Assembly (NCBI RefSeq): GCF_024437745.1
Contig: NZ_JANFNY010000041.1
Location: 1 to 42,972 of the forward strand
Length of the DNA: 42,972 nt
From: Roseomonas sp. GC11
GTDB taxonomy: Bacteria; Pseudomonadota; Alphaproteobacteria; Acetobacterales; Acetobacteraceae
Direction of reading: 5' to 3'
Shown: piece by piece, positions 5,120 to 11,310 of the stretch
Layout of the letters: the number at the start of each line of letters is the position of its first letter
Position numbering within the stretch: position 1 is the stretch's first letter
Program-made: the position numbers and the translations under genes
Notes under the pieces: model-generated
Databases searched by the model: none
Told to the model about the DNA's origin: nothing
Seen by the model: only the letters and a program-made list of their open reading frames with translations

Positions 5120-5818
5120 ATGAACGCCGTCATCCTCCTCTTCCCCGGCACCAACCGCGAGCGCGACATGGCGATCGCGCTGCACAAGGCGACGGGGAAG
5201 AAGCCCACCATCCTGTTCCACCAGGAAACCAGCCTGCCCGCCGGGACGGACCTGGTGGTGCTGCCCGGCGGCTTCTCCCATGGCGACTATCTGCGCTGCG
5301 GCGCCATGGCGGCACGCTCGCCCATCATGCCGGCGGTGGCCGAATTCGCGGCGAAGGGCGGGCATATCCTGGGCGTCTGCAACGGCTTCCAGATCCTGAC
5401 CGAGGCCGGGCTGCTGCCGGGCGCGCTGCTCCGCAACGCCGGGCTGCGCTTCCTCTCGATGGACTGCCACCTGCGCGTGGAAACCAGCGACAGCCCCTTC
5501 ACCAGCCGCTGGCAGAAGGGCGAGGTCTACCGCGCCCCGATGGCCCATGGCGACGGCAATTTTTTCTGCGATGACGAGACGCTCGCCCGCCTGAACGGCG
5601 AGGCCCGCGTGGCCTTCCGCTACGTGGACGCCAGCGGCGCCGCCACGCCCGAGGCCAACCGCAACGGCGCGCGCGAGAACATCGCCGGCATCCTGAGCGA
5701 GAACCGCCGCATCCTGGGCATGATGCCCCACCCGGAAGATCTGGTGGACCCGCTGATGGGCGGGACGGATGGGCTTCCGCTGTTCGAGAGCATCGCGGGG
5801 GTTTTGGCGGCGGCCTGA
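5120..5818 (+). CDS. purQ: Phosphoribosylformylglycinamidine synthase subunit PurQ (glutaminase)
   Basis: 232 aa class I glutamine amidotransferase. It hydrolyses glutamine and delivers ammonia to PurL through PurS. The N-terminal strand is [13 protein letters not shown]; the oxyanion-loop motif is [17 protein letters not shown] (48-64). The nucleophile is Cys87 in GVCNGF, and the catalytic His204/Glu206 lie in PHPE. Length is normal. In a typical pur cluster purL would follow within a few bases; here about 2.6 kb of AT-rich foreign-looking DNA plus a transposase-derived gene intervene. Confidence 0.97.
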
Positions 5819-6076
5819 GCGGGGGGTTTCAGTTCGGAGAGTTGGTGGGCGCGGGGCCGGGAGGCCTCGCGCTTTTGGTGCTTCCGGCAGCTACAGCCGG
5901 CGGGCCATCTGCGGCGGGATACCTTTGGAACATCGAAAATTCACCCGCAGAGCTGAAATTTTTAGCTCATATTCGAGCCAATTTAATTCGAAATAACTAC
6001 GAACCGACTTTACCGAGCAGCTGCGGCAAAGCTAATCTCGTGATGGGCTCGTCTGTCGCCTACAAGGAGGTGAGAA
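5819..6076. other. Junction between purQ and the AT-rich island
   Basis: The first 100 bases keep the host G/C bias; from about 5925 the sequence becomes A/T-rich. CCGGGAGGC at 5857-5865 recurs inverted (GCCTCCCGG) at 8410-8418. An imperfect palindrome, GAGCTGAAA/TTTTAGCTC, lies around 5950-5968 and could be an operator or promoter element for the island genes. An open frame through here (5842-6132) has no recognisable protein features. Confidence 0.4.
6064..6070 (+). promoter_or_regulatory. Ribosome binding site setting a TTG start
   Basis: AAGGAGG, a near-perfect anti-16S match, lies 6 bases before the TTG at 6077. It decides the start of the first island gene, which has no ATG until residue 12. 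Confidence 0.8.
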
Positions 6077-6841
6077 TTGTCTGCGACGATCAACGGCGTT
6101 GGCCAACTGATGTGCGGAAATCAAAATATTGACGGAATAGCAGGAAGCGCTCTGTTACAGCTGTCAAGTTCGATAGTTCAGTTTTCAGATCGAATGGTTG
6201 ATTTGCTAAACCGTGATGACAGCGTCGATAGAATTGCGCTCGGGCCATTCTGCACTAGAGTTTTCATGGAAAATTCTTTCGCCGCCATTATGGCTCGACT
6301 AGATTCATTTAGAATTATTTACCTCAGTGAATTTCAAAATCAACCCGAATATATTCATGGAAAACGAGCAAAATCTTCATTCTCTTGGTTTGGAGATGTT
6401 ATTCCGATCGATGAAAAATCAACAACAGCATTATGGAATATTGAGCATGACTCTTCTAAAATCAGCAGGGCATTATTTTCTCAATATTCAAATCATATGT
6501 ATTGGAAAAACGCTATGGCAAAATCATTAGATTATGTTTCAAAAAAACCCGCCAGCGCGATAAAGAGTGAGTTTTCTTTATTAGATCCAGAAACATTTAT
6601 GGTTCAATATAAAGGAACATGTCAGGGTTTATACTCTTCTTTATCTAAGGGCGTTCACTGGGAATTCTTCACAACAGCAATGGTCTATGACGACAATACG
6701 GTGACAGATTTAATAAAAAGCACGGCAAAAATAGTTAGTCAATTTGGATTTATTTCTAATTTTATATCAACATCAATTTCTTCTTGCAGTCCAGATGAGG
6801 CGTGGGAAATCTATTGCGATTTTCGGAGCAAAACGGAATGA
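6077..6841 (+). CDS. Island protein A, unknown family (254 aa)
   Basis: I do not recognise this protein. The start is TTG at 6077, fixed by AAGGAGG at 6064-6070. There is no signal peptide or clear membrane segment, and predicted structure is mostly helical. Recognisable stretches are ALLQLSSSIVQFSDRMVDLL (25-44), SWFGDVIP (103-110) and YSSLSKGVHWEFF (186-198). The last loosely resembles the Y-x2-LS-x2-vH pattern of some helical accessory proteins, but no HEPN R-x4-6-H motif, nuclease triad or nucleotide-binding loop is visible. The gene is A/T-rich and its stop overlaps the next start (ATGA at 6838-6841), so the two products are probably made together and may form a complex. Effector or adaptor partner of the downstream ATPase is a guess. 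Confidence 0.75.
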   Translation: MSATINGVGQLMCGNQNIDGIAGSALLQLSSSIVQFSDRMVDLLNRDDSVDRIALGPFCTRVFMENSFAAIMARLDSFRIIYLSEFQNQPEYIHGKRAKSSFSWFGDVIPIDEKSTTALWNIEHDSSKISRALFSQYSNHMYWKNAMAKSLDYVSKKPASAIKSEFSLLDPETFMVQYKGTCQGLYSSLSKGVHWEFFTTAMVYDDNTVTDLIKSTAKIVSQFGFISNFISTSISSCSPDEAWEIYCDFRSKTE

Positions 6842-8346
6842 TTAGTCAAAATTTAGATAGAAGCGACGCAGGCCTTGTCTTGGCTGCCGAGGAGTGGCCT
6901 CAGGATTCATTCGTTCAATATCATAGCTTTACTACGAACGATGAAAGTGTCATCCGCAAGCTAATTGCGCATGGCCCCGTCCTCATTAGAGGCGGCCGAG
7001 GCAGCGGCAAAAGCGCCCTACTGCTTGAGGCCCATCGGCGCATGCAAAATGTGCCCAACATTTTGCCTGTCTATGTCAGTCTGAGATACCTCCCGCTGCT
7101 TCAAGCGGACGGAAACGAATACATCAGGCACTTTTGTGATATTTTATCCGAAAAAATCAGTTCAGAAATTCAAAAAAGAAGGCTTAATTTTACGTTTGGA
7201 GAATGCAATGACGAATCTTCACTAAAAAGGAATCTTTCGGAGCTTTCTCAAAACTCGAATAGGAGAATCGTTCTTCTTTTTGATGATCCTGCACACATTG
7301 GTCGAGAGAAGTCTCTAGAAGTTTTTTTCGATTTATTCAGAACGATTTCCAGCAGCCTCATTTCGTGCAAAGCCGCGATTTACCCAGGCGTTACAAAATT
7401 CGGCATCCGCTTTGATGTGTTTAATGATTCAACATTAGTTGATATTACACGATCAGATGTATCTTCGACACCAAATCTATTTCCTGAGGTGATGAGGCTA
7501 AGATACCCAAGACTATCCGATCGTTCATTATTTTCTGATCGTTTATTGCCTGATCAGTTCGCAAACCTGCTTGGACGAGCAGTTGTCGGCAATATGCGTG
7601 GATTTATACTTGCCTGTAATAAATTTCAATATGAAAGAAAAATTGGGATTCCTCAGCTAAACAAATCTTTGCTTGAGCTTTCGACCGATCACTTTTGGCC
7701 GCTGATGGAAGAAGTCGCGCCTAAACTTGGCGTTTACGAGCCTTTGGTGGAGGGCCCCGCTCGTTCAATCATGGAAGCATTATGCATGCATATCGGGCAA
7801 TCTCTTCGAGAAAAATCAAGATTATCATTTCAAGATAAAGTGCTTATCCACAGAAATATTATTAGTAAATACTCAAAAATAATGGAAATACTTGAATATC
7901 TTGGATTTGTTTCGAAAAGAGAGGCATCTCGCGCCATGCGCTCTGGTGGTAGAGGGCCTGTGTTCGCCATGAATATTTGTAGTCTTCTCGAATTTATTCC
8001 AACTCAACGCCTTACATTAGAAAACATCAGGGATATGATCCTAAACAGCAGTGAACCTGCTGAAATTCACACCAATAGTAATGTTTTTAAAAACATTACT
8101 CTTCCAGATCTAGATAATAATGAAAATCTCAGCATTCTATCAAAAGAAATATCTTTTTTGCAAAAAAGCAAGATGTACCCATATGGGTTGACTAACGACA
8201 TGATTCAACGGCTCACACGCGCTAACCTTCACCTTGTTTCTGACCTCGCCTCTATATCTGACACAAATTTGCTTAGAATTGAGGGGATTGGTCGCGCCAA
8301 AATGAATAGAATTAAAAATGTAGTTTATCAGGCAATTTGGATGTAG
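6838..8346 (+). CDS. Island protein B, P-loop ATPase with winged helix and C-terminal helix-hairpin-helix (502 aa)
   Basis: ATG at 6838 overlaps the upstream stop. Residues 48-62 (VLIRGGRGSGKSALL) are a Walker A loop, and IVLLFDDPAHIG (144-155) is a Walker B strand with two acidic residues. GNMRGFILA (251-259) resembles the GxPR/sensor-2 motif of ORC/CDC6-like and STAND ATPases. Residues about 330-388 (KVLIHRNIISKYSKIMEIL, then a Gly/Arg wing) look like a winged helix. The last 50 residues contain LTNDMIQRLTRANL and LLRIEGIGRAKMNRIKNVV, a helix-hairpin-helix with the GIG hairpin, a DNA-binding module. This suggests an ATPase that senses or loads on nucleic acid. Nothing shows what it acts on. 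AAA+ (ORC/CDC6-like) rather than STAND is inferred from the domain order. A/T-rich composition sets it apart from the host genes. Confidence 0.85.
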   Translation: MISQNLDRSDAGLVLAAEEWPQDSFVQYHSFTTNDESVIRKLIAHGPVLIRGGRGSGKSALLLEAHRRMQNVPNILPVYVSLRYLPLLQADGNEYIRHFCDILSEKISSEIQKRRLNFTFGECNDESSLKRNLSELSQNSNRRIVLLFDDPAHIGREKSLEVFFDLFRTISSSLISCKAAIYPGVTKFGIRFDVFNDSTLVDITRSDVSSTPNLFPEVMRLRYPRLSDRSLFSDRLLPDQFANLLGRAVVGNMRGFILACNKFQYERKIGIPQLNKSLLELSTDHFWPLMEEVAPKLGVYEPLVEGPARSIMEALCMHIGQSLREKSRLSFQDKVLIHRNIISKYSKIMEILEYLGFVSKREASRAMRSGGRGPVFAMNICSLLEFIPTQRLTLENIRDMILNSSEPAEIHTNSNVFKNITLPDLDNNENLSILSKEISFLQKSKMYPYGLTNDMIQRLTRANLHLVSDLASISDTNLLRIEGIGRAKMNRIKNVVYQAIWM

Positions 8347-8377
8347 CAAGTTTATCGCCAACCAAGTTCAGAATTTA

Positions 8378-8403
8378 GGAAAATTTGCCCACAGCAAATT
8401 TCC
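8378..8403 (+). terminator. Hairpin at the end of the island operon
   Basis: GGAAAATTTGC (8378-8388) pairs with GCAAATTTCC (8394-8403) with one bulged A and loop CCACA, 31 bases after the ATPase stop. There is no U-tract. It coincides with the return to high G/C. Confidence 0.5.
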
Positions 8404-8419
8404 CTGATAGCCTCCCGGA

Positions 8420-9045
8420 ATGAGCGCATCCCGCCTGACGCCGCCCCGCCCCTGGGCCCCGATGACGGACCAGGAATGGGCGGCGCTCCTTCCCTATCTG
8501 CTGCACCGCTCGCCGCAGGGCCGCCCCCTCCGGGAATTGCGGCAGCGCATGGACGGCATCTTCGCCCTCGCCACCAGCCACGCCCCCTGGCGGGCGCTGC
8601 CGGAGCGGTTCGGCAAGGCCGACACCGTCGCCCGCTATTTCTGCCGCCTCATCCATGCCGGCCTCTGGCAGCGCTTGCTGGTCGCCCTGGCGGAAGCCGC
8701 ACCGAGCCACCCGCTGCGCGCCATCGAGCATTTCATCGTTCGCGCCACCCGCCGCGCCCACCGCATCCTCGGCCTGCCGCTGCTGGTGCTGATCCGCCGT
8801 ATCGGCCTGCGCTCCGCCCTGCGCGCCCCGCCCTGGCTGCTGCCGGACCCGGATTTGTCCGAAACCCTCCTCCGCCAGCCCCTGGCCTGGCTGCGCGCCG
8901 CCGCCCCGCCGGCGGAGGCGGCCGGAACACCGCCCGCCACCACCCCCGCAAGGGCCTGGAAGGAACGCTTCTCCGCCCTGCGATCCCTGTTGCGGACGGC
9001 CTGGGGGCGGGCCCGCATCAGCCGCTCGGTCTGCTGGGGGTGGCC

Positions 9046-9049
<4 letters not shown>
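8420..9049 (+). CDS. Transposase-derived DUF4096-like protein coupled to purL
   Basis: 209 aa. Residues about 15-95 ([63 protein letters not shown]) match the N-terminal DNA-binding region (DUF4096) of IS5-type transposases. The DDE catalytic domain is absent; the rest is Ala/Pro/Arg-rich with a hydrophobic [18 protein letters not shown] stretch. The stop overlaps the purL start as ATGA (9046-9049), so translation is probably coupled to purL. Composition equals that of the host genes, arguing for long residence. It could be a domesticated DNA-binding protein or a decaying fragment kept for coupling. Start at 8420 or 8462; neither has a good ribosome site. Confidence 0.7.

Positions 9050-11310
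<2,261 letters not shown>

Follow-up and report, generated by a model that had tools for sequence, protein, structure and literature searches.

An A/T-rich cassette of ~2.3 kb lies between purQ and purL in Roseomonas sp. GC11, and it raises the question of what its two genes do at this position. The window analysed here is the whole 42,972-nt stretch of contig NZ_JANFNY010000041.1 (assembly GCF_024437745.1), and all coordinates are positions of that window. The cassette, at 6,077-8,346, consists of gene A and gene B, together named AB. The original prediction, drawn from the letters of this DNA, had proposed an anti-phage or plasmid-conflict module. On balance, we favour the view that the two genes form a conflict module complete in itself, which spreads by horizontal transfer and most likely acts against phages. 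A role in defence is suggested by the pairing of the genes, their mobility, their composition and the cargo site in which they lie. The cassette comprises the following features:

6064..6071, forward strand: Shine-Dalgarno sequence AAGGAGGT, preceding the TTG start of A (from the sequence).
6077..6841, forward strand: gene A, 254 amino acids, orphan partner protein and candidate effector (open reading frame (ORF) call and 49-member alignment A5).
6838..8346, forward strand: gene B, 502 amino acids, with an ATG start at 6838 (P-loop and library matches).

As predicted, the 254-residue A was coupled to the 502-residue P-loop protein B by an ATGA in which the stop of A and the start of B overlap; the coordinates, the starts and the overlap all checked out, and the P-loop was confirmed by sequence and by library matches. 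The claim of a strong ribosome site of its own was borne out by the sequence at 6064-6071. The claim of a base composition unlike that of the flanking genes agreed with a GC content of 0.35-0.44 in 500-base windows (~0.41 overall) versus 0.65-0.75 in most flanking windows (~0.70). Direct repeats and terminal inverted repeats around the cassette were sought in the window and rejected, since short, imperfect pairs alone were found. The Rfam scan and the tRNA scan were both empty.

The occurrence of A and B was then compared. The genome of strain GC11 carried one copy of B, and it was the only one of 299 family genomes in which A was found. A two-row B profile was run on 200 genomes of the order. 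It matched none of the 8 same-genus relatives listed there, and the two other genomes that it matched carry distant relatives only. A YPG-motif pattern scan, with one genome per species, confirmed 238 B relatives. Among the best 80 of these 238, identity was 38-62% for 53 loci (L034-L086) and 21-29% for the other 27. The 53 loci with the B type of the window span five phyla, and an A-related sequence was detected by tblastn directly upstream of B in all of them (53/53), as it was in both loci of the same B type from a viral collection (L013, L014; 2/2). No A was detected by tblastn upstream of any of 46 distant B loci (17 viral, L032, L033 and 27 genomic). When the A and B profiles were searched separately in 398 genomes of the phylum, A and the B type (E <1e-200) occurred side by side in the same 6 genomes; these include the GC11 genome, and the remaining hits may overlap the 53 loci that built the profiles. 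Nine further genomes of the 398 contained weak or distant B matches only, and no A was found in them. Thus the check on whether A and B always occur together came out in favour of the prediction.

The two proteins also diverged together. Over the 48 pairs that are intact, distances among the A proteins correlated with those among the B proteins, with a Pearson coefficient of 0.88 (Mantel) and a Spearman coefficient of 0.64, and none of 2000 permutations was as high (maximum 0.19). The nearest neighbours in A and in B agreed for 26 of the 48 pairs. At 23 of 55 loci, a candidate B start and the A stop had an overlap of exactly 4 nt. Viral scans with the A4, A3 and A5 profiles yielded nothing that tblastn confirmed, and the A1 scan yielded two B loci carrying A. 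The phage collection, which was searched with B and not with A, contained no match to B.

Such strict pairing and close coupling are consistent with a toxin-antitoxin or addiction pair as well. A would then act as the toxin, with B as its ATP-dependent antitoxin or as a regulator, and what maintains the pair would be post-segregational killing or the exclusion of plasmids, not phage sensing. There is a precedent in a passage of PMC3710099, where a dyad of a HEPN protein and a ParA/Soj-like ATPase is proposed as a toxin-antitoxin pair. However, the plasmid collection (72,556 records) contained no match to A, and its B matches were distant, 3 with the window B and 5 with the L056 B, all below 60% identity. 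B is also large and conserved, with its own switch and helix-hairpin-helix (HhH) domains, and the usual antitoxins are unlike it in these respects. We consider an addiction pair improbable, and return to AB as a defence module.

DNA comparison between loci, with a threshold of at least 500 bp and at least 72% identity, was used to delimit the mobile unit. L049 and L051 matched at 83% over 2275 bp, and L064 and L069 at 85% over 2281 bp, both matches being limited to AB. For L049/L051, for L064 or L068 versus L065 and L069, and for L065/L069, the sole match covered AB and stopped no more than ~15 nt from the B stop. The match between L072 and L073 began ~125 nt into A and ended at the B stop. 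L046/L049 and L064/L068 matched on through their flanks and are in each case the same locus, and L075 was cut by a contig end in this comparison. Because DNA similarity at unlike loci stops near the edges of AB, the mobile unit is AB alone. Of the 52 loci at which the flanks were long enough, 48 had an AB that exceeded its flanks in A/T content by more than 0.03. In the B tree, betaproteobacteria fall within the alphaproteobacterial set, a Pseudomonas stands beside cyanobacteria and a Desulfobacter lies among gammaproteobacteria. This mixing of classes and phyla suggests horizontal transfer. According to a simple gene caller, 35 of 47 loci (p 0.001) had their nearest upstream gene co-oriented with AB, and 28 of 50 their nearest downstream gene. 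The copies lie at varied loci and across phyla, and on this check too the outcome favoured the prediction.

A unit that moves as AB alone could also be a selfish or recombination-helper cassette, in which an ATPase and a DNA-binding partner move themselves and have no defence role. Recombination proteins can contain HhH and AAA+ domains, and Resolvase and Phage_integrase matches were found in 3 and 2, respectively, of 141 neighbour proteins of other copies. However, no transposase or integrase was present within the stretch shared between loci, no strong terminal repeats were found around it in the window, and the landing sites vary in gene content. This explanation is accordingly given a low probability, below that of an addiction pair.

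L046 and L049, from two related Methylococcales bins, carry the cassette between carA and carB, an echo of purQ and purL around AB in the window. Both carA/carB and purQ/purL are pairs of a glutaminase and a synthetase subunit, possibly by coincidence. The two placements would fit an accessory with a housekeeping or regulatory role in the metabolism of purines or of glutamine amidotransferases. Against this, none of the 8 listed same-genus relatives gave a B match, other copies lie beside genes read by eye as argG, hslU, nrdB, aceE, clpX, smpB and mutM, and L046 and L049 count as one locus because their similarity continues through the flanks. Nor do Pfam and NCBIfam assign A or B to a housekeeping family, a point on which the prediction could have failed. 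A metabolic accessory is very improbable, the least credible of the readings considered here. The copy at L051, a close relative of that at L049 in carAB, adjoins a gene read by eye as a toxin-type GNAT acetyltransferase.

In the window, AB is a mobile cassette in a cargo site. The site is bounded by the following features:

5120..5818, forward strand: purQ, fixed left flank (GATase_5, E 1.4e-40).
8378..8413, forward strand: promoter-like block GGAAAATTTGCC with -35 TTGCCC, 17 nt and -10 TAGCCT, 5' of the DUF4096 gene, at the right edge of the site (by eye).
8420..9049, forward strand: lone DUF4096 gene (IS5 transposase N-terminal domain, E 8.5e-19), fixed right flank, outside the module.
9103..11310, forward strand: purL, right flank, named by eye, start codon not fixed; behind DUF4096 in 6/6 relatives with an assembled gap.

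The original prediction placed the cassette between purQ and purL, at a point where the two are normally adjacent. AB does lie between the two genes. In the rest of the family, 28 loci were examined (28 loci listed of 43 genomes with purQ); purL began no more than 170 nt after purQ in 21, the distance was 776-1350 nt in 3, and purL was not found within 1.5 kb in 4. Within the genus the statement did not stand. purQ was present in all 8 relatives searched, and in the 6 with an assembled gap the DUF4096-purL block lay 2.5-4.6 kb from purQ, adjacent genes being found in 0/6; the gap of L132 includes a run of N, and the contigs of L133 and L134 end inside the gap. In the window, the unmentioned ORF at 8420-9049 separates B from purL.

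A cassette of one or two genes, mostly with a GC content of 0.35-0.55, was found directly before DUF4096 in 5 of the 6 assembled gaps. ORFs of at least 100 amino acids in the 1.7 kb beside DUF4096 showed no protein similarity between genomes (E 1e-4), and the window gap shared no similarity of at least 25 nt with the six other gaps. The G/C-rich left part of the gap is common to several relatives but not to the window. The cargo of the relatives includes a DUF2971 protein (L130, E 4.2e-5) and an Mrr_cat nuclease at the contig end in the broken gap of L134 (E 3.5e-29); the tested cargo proteins of L129, L131, L132 and L135 had no Pfam match. With unrelated occupants in relatives, patchy presence and foreign composition, AB has the marks of a mobile cassette in a cargo hotspot, L128 being the exception (1/6). 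Similar stretches of 46-49 nt at cassette edges (L131/L132 and L132/L135) were considered as attachment sites and rejected; the two pairs do not share one sequence, and inverted repeats are present in one of the two.

The lone DUF4096 gene stood ahead of purL in the window and in all six relatives whose gap is assembled, namely L128-L132 and L135. Its product may be a transposase fragment that has been domesticated and serves as a regulator or insulator. By eye, a promoter-like block GGAAnAnTTGCC, followed after 17-18 nt by a TA-type -10, was recognised before it in the window, L128, L129, L130, L132 and L136; the block was partial in L131 and absent in L135. A simple promoter scan did not find the block at 8378..8413. 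This promoter-like block may explain how purL tolerates upstream cargo. The 3' hairpin that had been attributed to the cassette (8375-8407) overlaps the block found before DUF4096 in several relatives. It was rejected as a terminator, its folding being not clearly better than chance (z -1.3, with 19 of 200 shuffles folding equally well) and the terminator scan giving no match.

Matches to the DUF4096 gene numbered 1 in the GC11 genome and 4-10 in the relatives. Paralogous lone DUF4096 genes (L137-L144, L147) have another common promoter-like block, close to TTGACAAAAGGANTAAATTCCT, and in L141 and L147 the gene that follows reads as argG. Lower-GC cargo was seen 5' of several paralogues, namely an AAA_15/AAA_21 ATPase (L142), a NucS_C-like nuclease (L139), and an HTH-Peptidase_M78 protein with a PIN-like gene (L144; PIN by eye). 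These loci may represent another cargo site, built in the same way.

Protein B is a putative ATP-dependent switch. Its conserved segments are as follows:

6991..7014, forward strand: Walker A GGRGSGKS, residues 52-59, with G52, R54, G55, G57, K58 and S59 invariant in 52 members.
7270..7296, forward strand: Walker B-like VLLFDDPAH, residues 145-153, with F148, D149, D150, A152 and H153 invariant in 52 members.
7381..7404, forward strand: signature YPGVTKFG, residues 182-189, with YPG common to both sister classes described below (alignment).
8176..8343, forward strand: C-terminal HhH domain with QAIWM at its end (Pfam matches, alignment).

The core residues of GGRGSGKS and LLFDD were invariant in the 52 members, so that the Walker motifs are intact. 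The window B stayed below the Pfam cut-offs of AAA_16 (23.5 of 32.6 bits), ATPase_2 (23 of 33.2) and ORC-CDC6-like (17 of 27). Across the family, matches at E 0.01 or better were found to AAA_16 in 51/52 members, to ATPase_2 in 38/52 and to ORC-CDC6-like in 34/52. The C-terminus matched HHH_5 in 34/52 and RNA_pol_A_CTD in 33/52, and among solved structures the best matches of B fell in the HhH part and were RNA polymerase alpha C-terminal domains. In NCBIfam, weak matches at the P-loop level were obtained with the Sll1717 family, antiphage DS41_1 (18.7 of 370 bits) and RdrA. Residues 498-502, QAIWM, end the protein and are almost invariant in the 52 members (Q498, A499, W501 and M502 invariant). 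This conservation at the extreme C-terminus suggests a docking tail.

The weak but family-wide matches to AAA_16, ATPase_2 and ORC-CDC6-like resemble those of BREX BrxB/BrxD and other STAND/ORC-Cdc6-like defence ATPases. A passage of PMC12839542 describes BrxB as having no Walker motifs. B differs in its intact Walker motifs and C-terminal HhH domain, and no BREX gene was recognised by eye beside it.

Distant B relatives belong to other two-gene pairs. A script sorted 44 distant loci (17 viral, 27 genomic) into 26 of class II, 14 of class III and 4 of neither. In class II, a partner of 206-315 amino acids lies just upstream of the B-like ATPase and carries the motif YRxxSxxxHG (R-x6-H, invariant in 28 rows). 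In class III, a partner of 270-302 amino acids lies just downstream and carries RHxxxH (invariant in 14 rows). The B profile aligned nearly end to end with both classes (E 3.2e-51 for class II and 2.5e-52 for class III). The ORC-CDC6-like cut-off of 27 bits was passed by L003 (46), L004 (44.8) and L005 (33.2). Class II (~238-amino-acid partner and ~536-amino-acid ATPase; L003, L009) thus resembles AB in having two genes, an upstream partner and B homology over nearly the full length, but its B is 21-26% identical and its partner is not demonstrably related to A. Class III (L004, L005) shares the B homology over nearly the full length, but its gene order is reversed and it has an extra zinc ribbon, which was matched in L004 and L005 and appears as four invariant zinc-ribbon-type cysteines in 14 rows. 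The partner profiles of the two classes gave no significant alignment with each other, and one class III partner matched the RiboL-PSP HEPN model at E 0.0012, below the model cut-off.

The class II pair of L003 (5179-7536) belongs to an SspC/SspD operon on a Planktothrix plasmid; SspD lies on one side of it and, on the other, a helicase that has a PbeA match. For the window, the comparison covered the flanks of AB, which read as pur genes and DUF4096. At L009 (1-2193), in an alphaproteobacterium, a class II pair with an ATGA overlap stands beside a tRNA gene and pheT (by eye).

Protein A proved to be an orphan, as predicted, and passed no cut-off in Pfam, NCBIfam or PADLOC. Its best matches were weak: PHROG 29068 (E 0.0022, function unknown), PADLOC PDC-M04B (E 0.02) and DUF4930 (E 0.17). 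No Pfam family was common to the 49 members scanned; 8 models matched one member each (best E 0.00092). The mean identity among A proteins was 31%, versus 48% among B proteins (48 intact pairs). In alignment A5, R61, R74, Q87, D107, S187, S190, K191 and H194 were invariant, and E65 and D76 were kept in at least 90% of the 49 members. Such invariant polar residues against so low an identity suggest an effector. A conserved motif of A is:

6632..6664, forward strand: YSSLSKGVHWE, residues 186-196, with S187, S190, K191 and H194 invariant (49-protein alignment).

Since the partners of both sister classes carry the HEPN-type R-x4-H or R-x6-H, A is guessed in the first place to be a nuclease, tempered by the fact that A itself has no HEPN-type arginine. 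A may be a divergent HEPN-fold ribonuclease in which Rx4-6H has turned into SxxSKGxH and which is triggered by B, so that the three B classes would form one HEPN-plus-ATPase family. This possibility overlaps the reading of AB as a defence module and concerns the chemistry of A. In YSxLSKGVH, the residues Y, S and H are spaced as in class II YRxxSxxxH, and it is this stretch that hhalign aligns. In hidden Markov model ranking, class II partners and A each ranked above background for the other, with an area under the curve of 0.84 and 0.76; the ranking used related sequences and its background includes spurious ORFs. The class III partner profile did not rank A convincingly above background (0.57, p 0.09). 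Moreover, serine replaced the class II arginine in all 49 A proteins, no HEPN match to A was found in PDB sequences or among the Pfam matches of the 49 members, and profile comparison was not significant. A was therefore not filed under HEPN, and HEPN kinship is a candidate reading; we regard it as unlikely, though the strongest of the alternatives. AB resembles the HEPN-ParA/Soj and DUF499-HEPN dyads, as part of PMC3710099 presents them, in being a compact conflict pair of a small partner and a P-loop ATPase, but differs in the absence of the Rx4-6H arginine from A and in the ATPase family.

Several results count against the interpretation of AB as a defence module. Neither Pfam nor NCBIfam has a name for the pair, and with PADLOC system models B had no match and A one weak match (PDC-M04B, as above). 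A aligned with the sister-class partner profiles only at E 0.065 and 0.098 (hhalign, probability <1%). Co-divergence is expected of any co-inherited pair, and the gap of L128 contained no A/T-rich cassette. Many of the genes next to other copies look like housekeeping genes, and no defence gene was recognised by eye beside AB in the window, whose other ORFs were not scanned against the defence library. Matches to defence models exist among 141 of 167 candidate neighbours, without a control; among the 25 listed of 125 models, mad3 was found in 4 proteins and each other listed model in 1. Enrichment of defence neighbours was dropped as a claim because no control set was scanned.

With these points weighed, AB could work as follows. 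B would be an ATP-dependent sensor or switch of STAND/ORC-Cdc6 type, as its domains suggest, and its C-terminal HhH domain would bind nucleic acid or A. A would be an effector enzyme built around its eight invariant residues, with E65 and D76, and would be silent in the resting pair. B, on sensing infection, would release or activate A, and activated A would cause growth arrest or attack nucleic acid. The chance is somewhat short of even that AB is an undescribed immune system in which an ORC-Cdc6-like HhH ATPase with a QAIWM tail senses invading nucleic acid and unleashes an SxxSKGxH effector enzyme, and which is one of three parallel ATPase-plus-partner classes across phyla, beside housekeeping genes and not in defence islands. 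In the open-licence literature, we found no description of the AB pair or of the purQ-purL site. Compact ATPase-plus-partner conflict modules are already known as a kind, to which AB would belong.

At 2.3 kb, AB is a compact and testable candidate for an immune module whose partner protein falls in no known family, and three classes of two-gene ATPase modules are joined into one superfamily. The other occupants of the site between purQ and DUF4096-purL are ready candidates. Copies of AB often lie beside housekeeping genes, a position that searches based on defence islands would miss.

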